Source: an archaeon (GTDB taxonomy: Archaea; Asgardarchaeota; Hermodarchaeia; Hermodarchaeales; Hermodarchaeaceae). Taken from it: 5,244 bases of DNA. Shown here one piece after another: positions 49 through 5,244 of the stretch (its first letter is position 1; each line of letters begins with the position of its first letter). The stretch spans positions 1 to 5,244 of the forward strand of contig JABXGS010000250.1 of the NCBI GenBank assembly GCA_016550425.1, given 5' to 3'. The notes under the pieces are model-generated. The model worked only from the letters and a program-made list of their open reading frames with translations. It was not told the DNA's origin and ran no database searches. A program made the position numbers and the translations under genes.

Positions 49-1260
49 ATGCCACGCCAATCACTTCGAAGCAACCTAATCACCGAACGAACAAAGACAA
101 TTCATTATGCGATTCGCGATGTCGTCGTCACAGCAAAACAGCTGGAGGCGAAGGGGAAAAAAATTACGTACCTCAATATCGGCGATCCGATTGTCTATGA
201 CTTTGAAACACCCCCATTCTTAGTTGAAGCGTTTTGTGATGCTGCGAAACAGGGTCATAATGGGTATTCGGCTTCGGCTGGCATTCCAGAATTTCGAGAT
301 GCCGTGGTTGATAAGGAAAAGCGCATTAACAAGATTTCAATTGGAGCTGAGGATGTTATTGCTACTGCAGGGATTTCTGAAGGCATTCAGATGATGATGG
401 CAGCACTTGTTAACCCTGGTTCTGAGGTCTTAGTTCCCGGGCCAACCTATCCTCCCTATTTGGCGTTTGTGCGCTTCTTTGGTGGAACAGCACGAACCTA
501 TCGTTGTATCGAAGAAGAAGGTTGGCGGCCAGATCTTGATGACATTCGTGCAAAAATCACCGAAAACACCGCTGCGATGGTCCTCATCAATCCAAATAAC
601 CCCACAGGAGCTGTATATCCACCGAAGACGGTTCAATTGCTAATTGACATTGCTGGTGAATTTGGCATCCCCTTGATCTCGGATGAAGTCTATGATCGGC
701 TTGTTTACGATTTGGTGCCAACAAGCACTGCAGCCCTCGCGAAGGATGTTCCCGTGATTGGTTTCAACGGTCTCTCGAAGGTGTATCTGGTTCCTGGATG
801 GCGTATCGGTTACATGTATTTCCACCATCCAAACCAAGAACTCATGGAACTCAAAGAACACATCCTCAAACAAGCCCGCATCCGTATATGCACCAATGCC
901 CCCGCTCAATACGCTGCCTCTATCGGTCTTCGCGAATCTGATCCCTACCTTAAAGATGTCGTATCCCGATTACAAGACCGAAGAAATCTCGTTTGGAGGC
1001 GCCTTAACGAAATCGATGGCATATCAACTTCAAAACCAGAAGGTGCCTTCTACATTTTTCCCAGCATTGATTTACAGGACCGCTGGTCAACAGATGAAGA
1101 ATTCGTAATGGCGCTTCTGAAAGAAACAGGAGTACTTGTCGTTCACGGATCTGGCTTTGACCCAGTATTTGGTTCAGACCATTTTCGATTAGTCTTCCTT
1201 GCTCCCCCTACCATTCTCAATTCTGCCCTTGATGCAATACAAAAATTCGTTGAAAGCTAA
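49..1260 (+). CDS. Alanine aminotransferase, archaeal AlaAT type (PLP class I/II)
   Basis: This 403-residue, full-length fold-type I aminotransferase probably interconverts alanine plus 2-oxoglutarate and pyruvate plus glutamate in the cytosol. Visible landmarks: GYSASAG (72-78), with the Tyr that reaches the cofactor phosphate across the dimer; NPNNPTG (181-187), whose second Asn contacts the PLP ring; SDEVYD (211-216), with the Asp that pairs with the PLP nitrogen and a PLP-contacting Tyr; GLSKVYLVPGWRIGY (241-255), with Schiff-base Lys244 and phosphate-binding Arg252; and HFRLVF (378-383), with the Arg that binds the substrate carboxylate. The stretches YAIRDVV, LNIGDP, VPGPTYPPY, IEEEGWRPD, KPEGAFYIFP and VHGSGF match the Pyrococcus AlaAT pattern as I remember it, more closely than bacterial AspAT. 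The start is supported by AGGTGA 7 bases upstream. The gene stands alone on its strand and converges on a small gene. Its second half uses more C-ending codons than its first half. Another 2-oxo acid specificity cannot be excluded. Confidence 0.92.
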   Translation: MPRQSLRSNLITERTKTIHYAIRDVVVTAKQLEAKGKKITYLNIGDPIVYDFETPPFLVEAFCDAAKQGHNGYSASAGIPEFRDAVVDKEKRINKISIGAEDVIATAGISEGIQMMMAALVNPGSEVLVPGPTYPPYLAFVRFFGGTARTYRCIEEEGWRPDLDDIRAKITENTAAMVLINPNNPTGAVYPPKTVQLLIDIAGEFGIPLISDEVYDRLVYDLVPTSTAALAKDVPVIGFNGLSKVYLVPGWRIGYMYFHHPNQELMELKEHILKQARIRICTNAPAQYAASIGLRESDPYLKDVVSRLQDRRNLVWRRLNEIDGISTSKPEGAFYIFPSIDLQDRWSTDEEFVMALLKETGVLVVHGSGFDPVFGSDHFRLVFLAPPTILNSALDAIQKFVES

Positions 1261-1276
1261 TACGCAATCCGCAAAA

Positions 1277-1291
1277 AACCAAGTATTGGTT
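1277..1291 (-). terminator. Hairpin plus T-run terminator between convergent genes
   Basis: AACCAA (1277-1282) and TTGGTT (1286-1291) form a perfect 6-bp inverted repeat with a 3-base loop. Read on the - strand, the stem runs straight into a T-run (the complement of A at 1273-1278), an intrinsic-terminator-like layout for the small - strand gene, whose TAA stop (1290-1292) overlaps the stem. It sits 16 bases after the aminotransferase stop, so it may also mark the end of that transcript, but on the + strand no T-run follows. The stem is short and AT-rich. Confidence 0.45.
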
Positions 1292-1622
1292 AGTCTTCCT
1301 CTTCGGGTTCTGTTGGTTCAGTAAATTCAGTTGGTTCTGTTGATTGTGCTGGTCTAGCGATATTCATTCGTGCTTCTTGAACCATACGCCCAATCGTCCC
1401 AAACATCCGCTCTGGAGAAAACATCGGCATCGATACGGTGTTTTGGACAGCATTGAAGATCTCATTATGATTCAAATCGGTCGTCAGACGAGTAGTTCCA
1501 ATTTCAGTTGGACCACGAAAAATGCGAATGGCCCATTGATTCGCCACACGTCCGAGCTCTACCAAATATGATGTCATGGGGAGGAGGTATTTCTGGGTGA
1601 TGGGTTGATATTCTTGGGACAT
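1290..1622 (-). CDS. Small unrecognised protein with repetitive acidic C-terminal tail
   Basis: This 110-residue protein has no family that I recognise. The ATG at 1622-1620 is preferred over the TTG one codon upstream, because GAGG on the - strand lies 9 bases before the ATG. From its sequence the likely order is: an N-terminal helix (about 8-28), a beta hairpin around WAIRIFRGPTEIGTTRLTTDL (about 29-50), a helix (about 53-64), a Met/Pro-rich turn, a second amphipathic helix (about 70-87), then a disordered tail built from Thr-Glu-Pro/Phe triplets ending in EEED. There is no signal peptide, no membrane segment and no cysteine, so it is probably a soluble cytosolic protein. It lies 85 bases downstream of the coiled-coil gene on the same strand and may be co-transcribed with it. 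The clear start signal and coherent folding pattern argue that it is real. Confidence 0.65.
   Translation of the reverse strand: MSQEYQPITQKYLLPMTSYLVELGRVANQWAIRIFRGPTEIGTTRLTTDLNHNEIFNAVQNTVSMPMFSPERMFGTIGRMVQEARMNIARPAQSTEPTEFTEPTEPEEED
1305..1340 (-). repeat. Four 9-base units encoding Thr-Glu-Pro/Phe
   Basis: On the - strand the units read ACAGAACCA, ACTGAATTT, ACTGAACCA and ACAGAACCC in tandem and in frame. They encode TEP, TEF, TEP and TEP in the tail of the small protein. The units differ mostly at third positions, apart from the Phe codon, so the repeat looks diverged and kept as protein, not freshly expanded. It may vary in length between strains. Confidence 0.75.
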
Positions 1623-1659
1623 CAAAAGCCGCCTCTATTTATCGTATCCATCTACATGA

Positions 1660-1707: not shown

Positions 1708-2937
1708 TTAAGCAAGAAGAGCTTGAACTTCGTCGGGGAACTCTATTTCGATATCATCGCGAACCAACTTAGAAATTCCCGATTCAAGGCGTTTTTGCAG
1801 GGTTTTCAATCGCGCAGTAATACGAGCGATTTGTTCCTCTATATGTGCGATTTCAGATTTCACATCACGATGCTCCCACTCAGCACGTTCCAAGGATTTC
1901 TCCAAATCTCGACGCTCATCGGACGACACTGCACTCTCTAGCTCTTCTTTTCGAAACGCAAGGTTGGAAAATCGCAACCGATACTCATCTAAGTCTCCTT
2001 TCTCAACTATACCAGTCTTCCGATCCAACACTTTTCGATTCAAACTCGCCTTAAATTTCATCTTACCCTCTTGAATAGCCTCCGCCAACGCCGTCAAACC
2101 TGCTTTCAACCGCTCAAGATCATCTGTATCCCGCTGAAAAGCCGTCCACGGATCCTTCGAATATGCATCAGCCCCCTCACCCGCTACTGAGGATATCATT
2201 ATCGACTGACCTGCCGCCTGACTTACCTTCTTAAACGGTTTCTTGAGAAAATTCAACTGGTTCGTCACAATCATTCGAATACTATCAATTTCCTTGCGGA
2301 TGCCATCAATCTCCGCCAAGCCAGAATCCATCCTGAACTGCTCAATCCCTTCCTGGTGTTCCTCAACCCTCCCCGCGGTCTGCTCCTTCTGCTCTCTCAA
2401 CTCCGCCAATTGCTCAGATAACGTCAACACCTGTCGAGACCGGTCATCAATCTCCTCTACTTCCTCACCAACCAGTTCCACCTGCTTCGCTAACTTCTCC
2501 TTCTCCCAAATTTTCTTAATCTTCTGATATCCCTGTCCAATCGACCGAAATTGGTAATCCAACTCTTTGATTATCTTCTTATGCACCCGAGGTAACCGCG
2601 GAATATACCGACGCCCAGCATGCGTCGTATCCTGCAAATAATCCTCTAAATCATCCAACAATTCCTCTACCGAAGAATAGTTAATCTCCTCTGGAAACGC
2701 CATATCCTTCGCGCTACTTTTCAACCGGCTCGCTAACTTTAGAGCGGATCCTGGCACCGTCAACTCCCCATCAATCACCACCTCTTCTAGCAGCTGATCC
2801 GATGTCTCCACCGTTTTCACCAACGCCTCATCAATCCGGTCCAACTGCTTCTGAATATCCAACCGATAATTCGAAAGCAACTCACCGGTCCGCTCAGCAA
2901 ACCACTCCGGCAACTCATGCACGCCAATCACAGTCAA
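1708..2937 (-). CDS. Long coiled-coil protein of unknown function
   Basis: This protein has 409 residues from a TTG start at 2937-2935, or 407 from the GTG two codons later at 2931-2929. Two in-frame TGA codons directly precede the TTG, so nothing further upstream can be used. GAGG 9 bases before the TTG and GTGAT 8 bases before the GTG each support one of these starts. The likely layout is: a helical N-terminal region (about 10-135), a first charged coiled coil (about 140-225, rich in Glu, Lys, Gln and Arg), a break with LNFLKKPFKKV and Gly/Ser/Ala-rich sequence (about 228-262), a short helical region after DPW (262-300), and a second coiled coil (about 315-395). No P-loop, zinc hook, signal peptide or membrane helix is visible, so a full SbcC/SMC ATPase is unlikely. 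Such proteins often act as scaffolds or tethers. It is divergent from the longin-GTPase and upstream of the small acidic-tail gene. Its third positions are G/T-rich, opposite to the neighbouring GTPase gene. Confidence 0.85.
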   Translation of the reverse strand: MTVIGVHELPEWFAERTGELLSNYRLDIQKQLDRIDEALVKTVETSDQLLEEVVIDGELTVPGSALKLASRLKSSAKDMAFPEEINYSSVEELLDDLEDYLQDTTHAGRRYIPRLPRVHKKIIKELDYQFRSIGQGYQKIKKIWEKEKLAKQVELVGEEVEEIDDRSRQVLTLSEQLAELREQKEQTAGRVEEHQEGIEQFRMDSGLAEIDGIRKEIDSIRMIVTNQLNFLKKPFKKVSQAAGQSIMISSVAGEGADAYSKDPWTAFQRDTDDLERLKAGLTALAEAIQEGKMKFKASLNRKVLDRKTGIVEKGDLDEYRLRFSNLAFRKEELESAVSSDERRDLEKSLERAEWEHRDVKSEIAHIEEQIARITARLKTLQKRLESGISKLVRDDIEIEFPDEVQALLA

Positions 2938-3099
2938 TCATCACAGCCTCGCTTCACAAAACAGAACCACCTACTAAAAAAACTACCTCAAGAGAATCCT
3001 AATCACCACCCCGCCCAAGCAGCTTGCACGAAAAGCTTATCAACGCTCTTCCATAGTCAAGAATGCAACGCTAAAATCTTATCCTGTGGTGAGCGGGCA
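2938..3099. promoter_or_regulatory. Divergent control region between the coiled-coil and GTPase genes
   Basis: These 162 bases separate the two divergent starts and must carry both promoters. For the - strand gene, an oligo-T element ending in TTTTTAGTAGGTG (complement of 2968-2980) lies about 31-43 bases before the TTG and is the best TATA-like candidate. The same 13 bases occur before the aminotransferase. For the + strand gene, AAAAGCTTATC (3031-3041) is a weak TATA candidate. The + strand can be read open from an ATG at 2917, but the resulting 61 residues are Gln/Asn/His/Ser/Pro-rich with no domain character, and that start would overlap the opposite gene, so I treat the stretch as non-coding. 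Confidence 0.5.
3088..3092 (+). promoter_or_regulatory. GGTGA ribosome binding site that points to an AUU start
   Basis: GGTGA at 3088-3092 ends 7 bases before ATT at 3100. The aminotransferase in this window has exactly the same AGGTGA, 7 bases, start-codon spacing. No in-frame ATG, GTG or TTG lies between the ATG at 2917 and the ATG deep inside the longin-like domain (Met99 counted from the ATG at 2917). A second ATT follows at 3103 with a 10-base spacer. The site therefore favours a rare AUU initiation codon, or a base error or mutation in a former ATG. Confidence 0.6.
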
Positions 3100-3990
3100 A
3101 TTATTCATAATGCTATCCTTTTCAACATCAGCCCCCGCAAAGACGAAGTCGGACTCCAAGCCAACGTCATCTTCCGCAAACAATACTGGCGCGTCCCCCT
3201 CAACGACAACATGATCCGCGAATTCCTCCGCGCCTACAAAGAATTCATGAGCCACGTCCAAAGCACCGACATCCCCGCCCTCCCCATCCACATCCAAGGC
3301 GCCAAATTCATCTTCACCAACATCGAAGACCTCCTCCTCGTCTTCATCAGCCACATGCAAGACGACGACAGCCGCGTCAACGAAAAGGTGAAAACCGCCC
3401 TCCGCATGCTCGTCGGCAAATACGGCACCGAACACATCAAAGACATCGCCACCAACGACAACACCCAACCCATCGAAGACCTCATCGACAACTACATCAT
3501 GAGCAAACTCAAAGTCAGCCTCGTCGGCGAAGGCGGCGTCGGCAAAACCACCCTCCTCCGCCTCCTCAAAGGCGGCTCCCCACCCACCGAATACGTCCCC
3601 ACCATCGCCCTCAGCATCGAACAAATCGAAGCCACCCGCTACGGCACCTACCAAATCATCCTCTGGGACTTCGCCGGCCAAGAACGCTTCCGCCGCCTCT
3701 GGACCATCTACTTCCGCGGCAGCGACATCGTCTTCATCATCACCGACAGCACCCTCAACAACGTCATCGCCACCAAAGAAATCCTCGACGTCATCCGCAA
3801 AGACGCCCCCGGCGTCCCCGTCTGGGCCATCGCCAACAAACAAGACCTCGAAGGCGCCCTCAGCCCCGAACTCGTCGAACGCATCCTCGGCATCCCCGCC
3901 TTCGGCATGGTCGCCATCGACCAAGCCCGCAAAGAAGAAATGATGCAAATCCTACTCGACGCCGTTGATCGCTATATAGGAACGGAATGA
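3100..3990 (+). CDS. Longin-like domain fused to a Ras/Arf-like small GTPase
   Basis: The protein has 296 residues if started at the ATT at 3100. Starting instead at the ATG at 2917 gives 357 residues and adds an implausible 61-residue leader. The N-terminal domain (about 1-132) follows longin order: a first strand IHNAILFN, a further strand with ANVIFRKQYW, a helix (about 37-53), strands with GAKFIFTNIEDLLLVFIS, then two helices (about 92-108 and 124-133). A complete GTPase follows from about 136: P-loop GEGGVGKTT (143-151), switch I Thr168 in an Arf-like VPTI, WDFAGQE (189-195) with the catalytic Gln194, and NKQD (246-249) for guanine recognition. The usual SAK-like G5 motif is weak, perhaps AID at 272-274. 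There is no N-terminal glycine for lipidation and no CAAX tail, so any membrane contact probably goes through the longin domain or a partner. It is divergent from the coiled-coil gene. Between about 3121 and 3963 nearly every four-fold site is C and two-fold purine sites are A, while the last few codons return to mixed usage. Confidence 0.88.
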   Translation: MIHNAILFNISPRKDEVGLQANVIFRKQYWRVPLNDNMIREFLRAYKEFMSHVQSTDIPALPIHIQGAKFIFTNIEDLLLVFISHMQDDDSRVNEKVKTALRMLVGKYGTEHIKDIATNDNTQPIEDLIDNYIMSKLKVSLVGEGGVGKTTLLRLLKGGSPPTEYVPTIALSIEQIEATRYGTYQIILWDFAGQERFRRLWTIYFRGSDIVFIITDSTLNNVIATKEILDVIRKDAPGVPVWAIANKQDLEGALSPELVERILGIPAFGMVAIDQARKEEMMQILLDAVDRYIGTE

Positions 3991-4023
3991 TTGAACAAAT
4001 AGATAAACTCTTATATTTATAAT
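3991..4023. terminator. AT-rich convergent spacer, probable termination zone
   Basis: The 33 bases between the GTPase stop (3988-3990) and the endonuclease stop (4024-4026) are strongly AT-rich, with a TTATATTTATAATT stretch at 4012-4025. Archaeal transcription often ends in T-rich tracts without a hairpin, and this is the only such tract after the GTPase gene. No strong inverted repeat is present, only a 5-bp TTGAA/TTCAA pair at its edges. Confidence 0.35.
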
Positions 4024-5244
4024 TCAACAATTAAGTTCATTCTTTTTGATGAACTTCCGAATCCTTCCTGGATAATAACAGATACCAAGTTTATCGAAAA
4101 TGAATTCAACGATTTCTCCAGGGCTTTTTCCTTCTTTTGATAATTTTTTGATATAATTTTCTGCCTCCGTAGTTATAGGAGTCCTTACATGTAAAGCTCT
4201 CGCTGCCATCATTCTTGAGAGCTTATCTGCTTGTTCTTGTCGTCCCGTTGCATGTAAGAAAAATGGGAGTTCGGCTGCATGAACAACGCTTGATTGTTGT
4301 TCAATAATAACGCGATTTCGAAGAAATCTACTATTGATTCCAAGTGAAAGAAGGAATTCGATTAGAAAGGGGCTATTGACCTCACTTGCATTTCCAAGTT
4401 TCTGATATTTCGTGTTGGCATATCCATCTCCGTCATTAAGACCTTGAAGGAACTTGATGCGGATAGGTTTGGGTGCAGTGAGGAGCCAGGGAGCTGTGAT
4501 TGGTGTGTAGGTGCTGAGTTGATTGGGGTGAAGACCAAGGCAGATGTGCTTGATCCAAGTGAGGAGTGGTGTATTCTGACTTCGCCATCGGTGCTTGTTA
4601 GTACTGGTCTTATATTCGGCGTGAACGCCGATGTGTCCGAGATAGTAGCAGACGGCATCACCGAATTGCTTACTCCAGGGATAGTTTTTCGATAGGTTTA
4701 GTGCAAGTCGGGTAGAAGTGTAGTAGGGTGTGATTTTGCCGGCGTCGCTGACGAGGGCACCAAGTAGGTAGGCGAAGGCTTCGGTTTGGGGGATGGGTCC
4801 GAATTGTTGGTGCCATTGGGTCATGGCGGGGTTGGTGCGGGGGGTAAGTTGTTGGAGGACGGGTTGGATTTGTGTCCATGTGGTGATGGTGGTGGGGACG
4901 TGGATGAAGTGGGTGGGGTGGAAGCGGCCTTCCATGATGAGGGGGAGCCATTGGTTGCCGGGGGTGGGTGGTGTGGGGGGGATGCGGCGGGCGAGGTTGA
5001 GGAGGCCGGGGCGGGCTGTGTTGGTGCACCAGTCTTTGATGTTGGTGACGGTTTTGTTGGTGGTGGTGGCGAGGTCGGTGTAGCTGTGGCCGCCTTTAGC
5101 GAGGAGGGTGAGGACGTGGAAGTATTTGGTGCATTGGGTGAGGCGGTCGGGTTGGCCTTTGGCGTGGTCGAGGAATTGGGCAGGGTAGTAGGTGTGTAGT
5201 CGATTATGCAGGTCGGTTGAGGTCTGAATGTTGGTGTTGGTTTC
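4024..5244 (-). CDS. LAGLIDADG homing endonuclease-like protein, 5' end beyond the window
   Basis: The reading frame is open from the right edge to TGA at 4026-4024, giving 406 visible residues with the true start outside. An ATG at 4935 would give 303 residues, but the 103 codons before it form a helix-turn-helix-like segment (about 44-75 of the visible protein, SYTDLATTTNKTVTNIKDWC), so the longer form is preferred. Two LAGLIDADG motifs are present, so one chain could supply both halves of the active site: YLLGALVSDAG (159-169, Asp167) and FLQGLNDGDG (265-274, Asp273). The second fits the consensus at L, G, L, D, D and G. The C-terminal part (about 360-400) has a second helix-turn-helix-like pattern. 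No intein splice-junction residues are visible at the C-terminus, so it looks free-standing or intron-borne. The first half is very Thr/Pro/His/Asn/Gln-rich because its coding strand is C/A-skewed; the last 415 bases are AT-rich and balanced. Family assignment is firm; activity is inferred. Confidence 0.8.
   Translation of the reverse strand, partial: ETNTNIQTSTDLHNRLHTYYPAQFLDHAKGQPDRLTQCTKYFHVLTLLAKGGHSYTDLATTTNKTVTNIKDWCTNTARPGLLNLARRIPPTPPTPGNQWLPLIMEGRFHPTHFIHVPTTITTWTQIQPVLQQLTPRTNPAMTQWHQQFGPIPQTEAFAYLLGALVSDAGKITPYYTSTRLALNLSKNYPWSKQFGDAVCYYLGHIGVHAEYKTSTNKHRWRSQNTPLLTWIKHICLGLHPNQLSTYTPITAPWLLTAPKPIRIKFLQGLNDGDGYANTKYQKLGNASEVNSPFLIEFLLSLGINSRFLRNRVIIEQQSSVVHAAELPFFLHATGRQEQADKLSRMMAARALHVRTPITTEAENYIKKLSKEGKSPGEIVEFIFDKLGICYYPGRIRKFIKKNELNC
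4440..5244. other. Patch with G/T-rich, C-poor + strand
   Basis: Row counts are 23 G to 7 C at 4501-4560 and 32 G to 9 C at 4921-4980, whereas 4381-4440 has 9 G to 15 C. The sign is opposite to the patch on the left. The border near 4440 falls inside the endonuclease gene, close to its second catalytic motif. The patch continues to the right edge. Confidence 0.7.

Follow-up and report, generated by a model that had tools for sequence, protein, structure and literature searches.

Proteins in which a longin domain is fused to a small GTPase are already known in Asgard archaea. Box 1 of a 2016 article counts 41 longin domains in Lokiarchaeum, five of them fused to Arf-like GTPases (PMC4917890), and a passage of a 2024 study describes 26 of 74 GTPase sequences of MK-D1 as joined with roadblock or longin domains, the fused class being structurally most similar to Rag (PMC10933270). 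A further paper includes a report of adaptor protein (AP) domain homologues in Asgard archaea, the small chain among them (PMC10307638). The gene described here lies at 3100..3990 on the forward strand of a 5,244-nucleotide stretch of DNA from a Hermodarchaeota-like (Asgard) genome; this whole stretch is referred to as the window. The analysis confirmed that the gene encodes one chain with a longin domain and a complete small GTPase. It thus resembles the Lokiarchaeum and MK-D1 fusions, as those passages describe them, in joining an Arf-like GTPase to a longin domain in an Asgard genome, and differs from them as a member from Hermodarchaeota with a probable non-AUG start. Because the two sources cited for them describe such fusions, the architecture is not new; the additions made here are a profile link to AP sigma subunits, the start codon and a conserved divergent coiled-coil neighbour. 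The AP sigma likeness of fused longins and the non-AUG start were not found in the literature searched, which does not establish their absence from print. No prokaryotes are known to be nearer to eukaryotes than Asgard archaea, and such proteins bear on how the switches of membrane traffic and their adaptors came together.

The stop-free frame at 3100-3987 translates into 296 residues, from an ATT codon to a TGA stop at 3988-3990. Orthologues are 97% identical in L001 (a contig titled Candidatus Hermodarchaeum yapensis), 93% in L002 and 89% in L003, where the contig ends and only residues 1-227 are covered. The sequence-only reading of this DNA had proposed a longin-like domain followed by a GTPase with all its motifs through NKQD, and both domains were found in that order.

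The N-terminal half, residues 1-134 (3100..3501), has a predicted longin fold. As the GTPase filled the list from the full-length structure search, a separate model of the longin half was made and used for searching; all structure models are of single chains. The model of residues 1-135 has a predicted local distance difference test (pLDDT) score of 91.0 and a predicted template modelling (pTM) score of 0.88. Its strands (residues 2-12, 19-28, 63-65, 68-75 and 78-85) and helices (36-52, 90-108, 110-119 and 123-133) follow the longin order. The top structural matches in the PDB are adaptor, COPI, VAMP7, TRAPP and similar longin chains, so that the comparison with longin folds proposed beforehand came out in favour of the assignment. 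A profile built from 60 N-terminal domains of the family and searched against 177,635 PDB sequences returned AP sigma subunits as its top nine matches, the best being AP-3 sigma (E 2.9e-5), a sequence likeness to AP sigma/mu chains above that to other longins. When the 60 family members were compared with Pfam at E values up to 1, Clat_adaptor_s was matched by 13, Fuz_longin_1 by 14 and Longin by 6.

The C-terminal half, residues 135-296 (3502..3987), is a small GTPase that is Arf-like by sequence. The 357-residue frame that contains the 296-residue protein matches Pfam Arf (E 1.2e-18), Roc (E 1.5e-17) and Ras (E 5.5e-15). Conservation was read from 217 distinct rows among 236 relatives, each selected for more than 85% coverage of the two-domain profile. 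The P-loop GEGGVGKT (residues 143-150, 3526..3549) occurs in all 217, and the switch I threonine, Thr168 (3601..3603), in 216. Switch II reads WDFAGQ (residues 189-194, 3664..3681), with Gln194 kept in all 217 and Asp190 among the motif positions kept in 216-217. The base-specificity motif is NKQD (residues 246-249, 3835..3846), with NKxD in every relative. The chain therefore carries the full Ras-superfamily set of P-loop, switch I threonine, DxxG and NKxD. The closest solved relatives of this half by sequence belong to the Arf family, and 8oum is among the best matches by structure.

The relation to Arf probably does not extend to its characteristic mechanism. Asgard ArfR proteins are reported to share with Arf a rearrangement of the N-terminal helix (PMC12554972). 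In the longin-GTPase, the last longin helix (residues 123-133, 3466..3498) sits directly ahead of the first GTPase strand and, with Arf as the nearest family by sequence, might be thought to replace the N-terminal amphipathic helix of Arf and to be displaced by the interswitch on GTP binding. A short interswitch is needed for the Arf toggle. In the alignment, however, the interswitch of Arf2, Arf1, Arl8A and Arl10B is three residues shorter than that of the window's GTPase, and the longer form is the rule in the family, Thr168 and Asp190 being 22 residues apart in 195 of 217 relatives. In addition, WDFAGQ takes the place of WDxGGQ, the second glycine of the G3 motif being found in only two relatives of 217, and a whole longin domain stands before the first strand in place of the amphipathic helix. 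A toggle of the Arf type is consequently considered highly improbable. Since these hallmarks are missing, the comparison suggests that the longin domain is a permanent platform rather than a helix released upon GTP binding.

The two halves are closely joined. The full-length model (pLDDT 83.7) has residue 133 as the end of the last longin helix and residue 135 as the start of the first GTPase strand, so that the helix enters the strand without a linker. The segment from residue 130 to 143 is 14 residues long in all 217 relatives; this constant length suggests, at the level of sequence, a rigid junction that would hold the longin domain in register with the GTPase. Together with the P-loop, Gln194 and NKxD kept in every relative, it also speaks against an arrangement due to chance. 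It is possible, if rather doubtful, that the longin domain instead lies over the switches of the GTPase to which it is fused, where it would serve as an in-built lid, exchange factor or GTPase activator, by analogy with the capping of SR-beta by SRX. A helix that leads directly into the first strand of the GTPase may, however, put the longin domain away from the switches, and coupling analysis gave no usable contacts.

Relatives keep the N-terminal region, the second point on which the sequence-only reading could have failed. In a search across the phylum, some match is present in 195 of 195 Asgard genomes at E 1e-10, though a match may cover one domain only. Among the matches listed (to about E 3e-68), at least 147 contain both domains, in at least 78 of the 195 genomes, and the N-terminal domain taken by itself has matches in 97 of 119 genomes. 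All protein matches with an organism name, among 120 listed of 974, are Asgard. Three Hermodarchaeota genomes hold extra copies of the same build that are 37-46% identical where the match covers most of the protein. When 33 GTPase domains were placed in a tree, a single branch (support 99/99; present in 100% of 200 bootstrap trees) set the 16 longin-fused sequences apart from the remaining 17, which are other GTPases from one genome; the tree was built without Arf reference sequences and the place of one long row (L143) is unsure.

Variants of the architecture also occur. Longin-only frames of 150-264 residues with no GTPase match number 13 in 12 loci (L053-L064), and two of them stand side by side in L060. 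Among the matches listed, some relatives are longer, with open frames of roughly 500-720 residues; in one of 606 residues (L021, 1501-3321) the GTPase is followed by an extended acidic tail of low complexity, and many of the open frames are of similar length. A second longin-GTPase paralogue (L008 2432-3346, L004 2841-3755, L012 432-1343) has a conserved protein of 305 residues ahead of it, for which the match to transcription initiation factor IIB is weak and below the cut-off (E 0.0072).

On balance, the longin-GTPase is probably a GTP-dependent switch with a longin platform of its own, held at a constant position within the one polypeptide. This reading is favoured by the longin model, the AP sigma profile, the conserved motifs, the constant junction, the 99/99 branch of the tree and the published Asgard precedents. 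The GTPase half would cycle between GTP and GDP and recruit partners through its switch regions, while the longin half would either form a pair with a second domain, longin or roadblock, or hold an effector. Longin domains pair or hold effectors in this way in the AP, SRX/SR-beta, TRAPP and Ragulator assemblies. Several observations weigh on the other side. The longin domain of the window has no Pfam longin match of its own, its first 136 residues giving only ExsA_N at E 0.03, below the cut-off; the assignment is therefore based on structure and family profiles. The conserved positions of the N-terminal domain vary more than the motifs of the GTPase do (Trp30 in 176 and Asp88 in 164 of 217 relatives), and the pTM of the full-length model is only 0.70. 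Coupling analysis over 286 columns, with 62 effective sequences at 80% identity, placed 34 of the 120 best pairs between the domains, in a list that looks dominated by descent.

The likeness to AP sigma sharpens the earlier suggestion of a trafficking-type adaptor and its switch in one protein; the fusion as such was already on record. AP sigma and mu subunits share the longin fold and significant profile similarity with the family. They have no GTPase of their own and are parts of a heterotetramer, their eukaryotic partner GTPase being Arf1, whereas here longin and GTPase form one chain. In the signal recognition particle (SRP) receptor, SRX and SR-beta are likewise two proteins, compared with a single chain of 296 residues here; the receptor's longin chain continues into an SRP-type GTPase, and the GTPase behind the present longin is of the Arf/Ras class. 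Rag/Gtr proteins likewise combine a GTPase with a roadblock/longin-class domain. In Rag the roadblock domain follows the GTPase; here, by contrast, the longin precedes the GTPase, whose final helix (residues 275-293) closes the chain. The Pfam match of the 357-residue frame to Gtr1_RagA (E 0.0025) is below the cut-off. A bolder and distinctly unlikely proposal, taken as a whole, would make the protein a one-chain counterpart of eukaryotic Arf and AP sigma (or of SR-beta and SRX): an adaptor-type longin and its GTPase would have begun, or would survive, as a single chain in Asgard archaea, the eukaryotic adaptor-switch pairs would descend from proteins of this build, and a near-cognate start codon would additionally limit or control synthesis in the window's orthologue group. 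A soluble protein with both halves would be a tractable system in which to test the effect of an adaptor-type longin on the GTPase cycle, and the AP sigma link gives that test a direction.

The start of the protein at 3100 agrees with the start position of the family, as the sequence-only reading had it, but the codon there (3100..3102) is ATT. Listed paralogues have ATG or TTG immediately ahead of a conserved IHN/IHH, exactly where the window has ATT, and across 103 distinct family loci the position is ATG, TTG or GTG in 98. Three of the five exceptions belong to the window's orthologue group and the other two (L085 and L123) have ATG or TTG one codon upstream. Eight distinct orthologous loci have ATT, ATA or ACG at this position and never ATG, GTG or TTG: ATT in the window, L001, L002, L133 and L135 (which extends only 3 codons further upstream), ATA in L003 and L134, and ACG in L072, from the same genome as L136. 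Each of the three codons differs from ATG by one base.

Two other forms of the protein, one of 357 residues beginning with the ATG at 2917 and one of about 259 beginning with Met38, correspond to database entries of 357 and 259 residues for the orthologue group. L002 and L133, however, have no in-frame ATG, GTG or TTG upstream of residue 2 before a stop. The window and L001 have none within 45 codons upstream; the next in the window is the ATG at 2917, which lies upstream of a conserved block at 3030-3046 (see below). Among 21 pairs of seven orthologues, differences at codon positions 1, 2 and 3 ahead of Met38 number 175, 108 and 294, indicating selection at the protein level on residues 2-38, and a form starting at Met38 would lack the first two longin strands. 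The upstream codon survey, these differences and the family start position together disfavour both forms, which have only a slim chance of being the true protein. Orthologue comparison makes it likely that initiation takes place at this ATT codon in the window, L001, L002 and L133. Against such a start in the other loci, L003, L134 and L072 may begin at a GTG, TTG or ATG that lies in frame 4 to 12 codons upstream. A non-AUG start would explain why Met38 is taken as the first residue in several database entries of the group, which thereby miss part of the longin domain; that it serves to control expression is speculation.

Two elements precede the start codon. The motif GGTGA (3088..3092, forward strand), which we take to be Shine-Dalgarno-like, lies 7 bases 5' of the ATT. 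Further upstream, the block GAAAAGCTTATCAACGC (3030..3046, forward strand) is near-identical in five of seven aligned orthologues (the window, L001, L002, L003 and L134, not L133 or L136) and may be a promoter element.

The divergent neighbour (1708..2937, reverse strand) encodes a coiled-coil-like protein of 409 residues that is conserved in Hermodarchaeota. It adjoins the longin-GTPase gene in all seven orthologous loci that reach upstream (the window, L001, L002, L003, L072, L133 and L134), L135 ending before it. Matches to the protein, one per genome, occur in 102 of 190 Asgard genomes, and against NCBIfam it gave only matches far below the cut-off. Its position only suggests a functional link to the longin-GTPase, possibly as a partner. 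The link is weak because, among the matches listed outside Hermodarchaeota with both genes on one contig (G006, G038, G050, G068, G075, G129 and G132), the two are about 89 kb or more apart.

Beyond the end of the longin-GTPase gene, a 406-residue open frame on the reverse strand (4024-5244) runs past the end of the window. Its weak match to LAGLIDADG_3 (E 0.00097) is below the cut-off, and no match to it was found among the fetched loci compared, the flanks of L001 and L002 included. Further upstream on the other side are an uncharacterised 111-residue frame (1290-1625, reverse strand) and an aminotransferase gene (49-1260, forward strand; Pfam Aminotran_1_2, E 1.6e-58). The third codon positions are 75% C in the longin-GTPase gene and 27% C in the aminotransferase gene. 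The GC skew is about -0.3 to -0.45 over 1750-4000 and then swings to +0.5 at 4500-5000.
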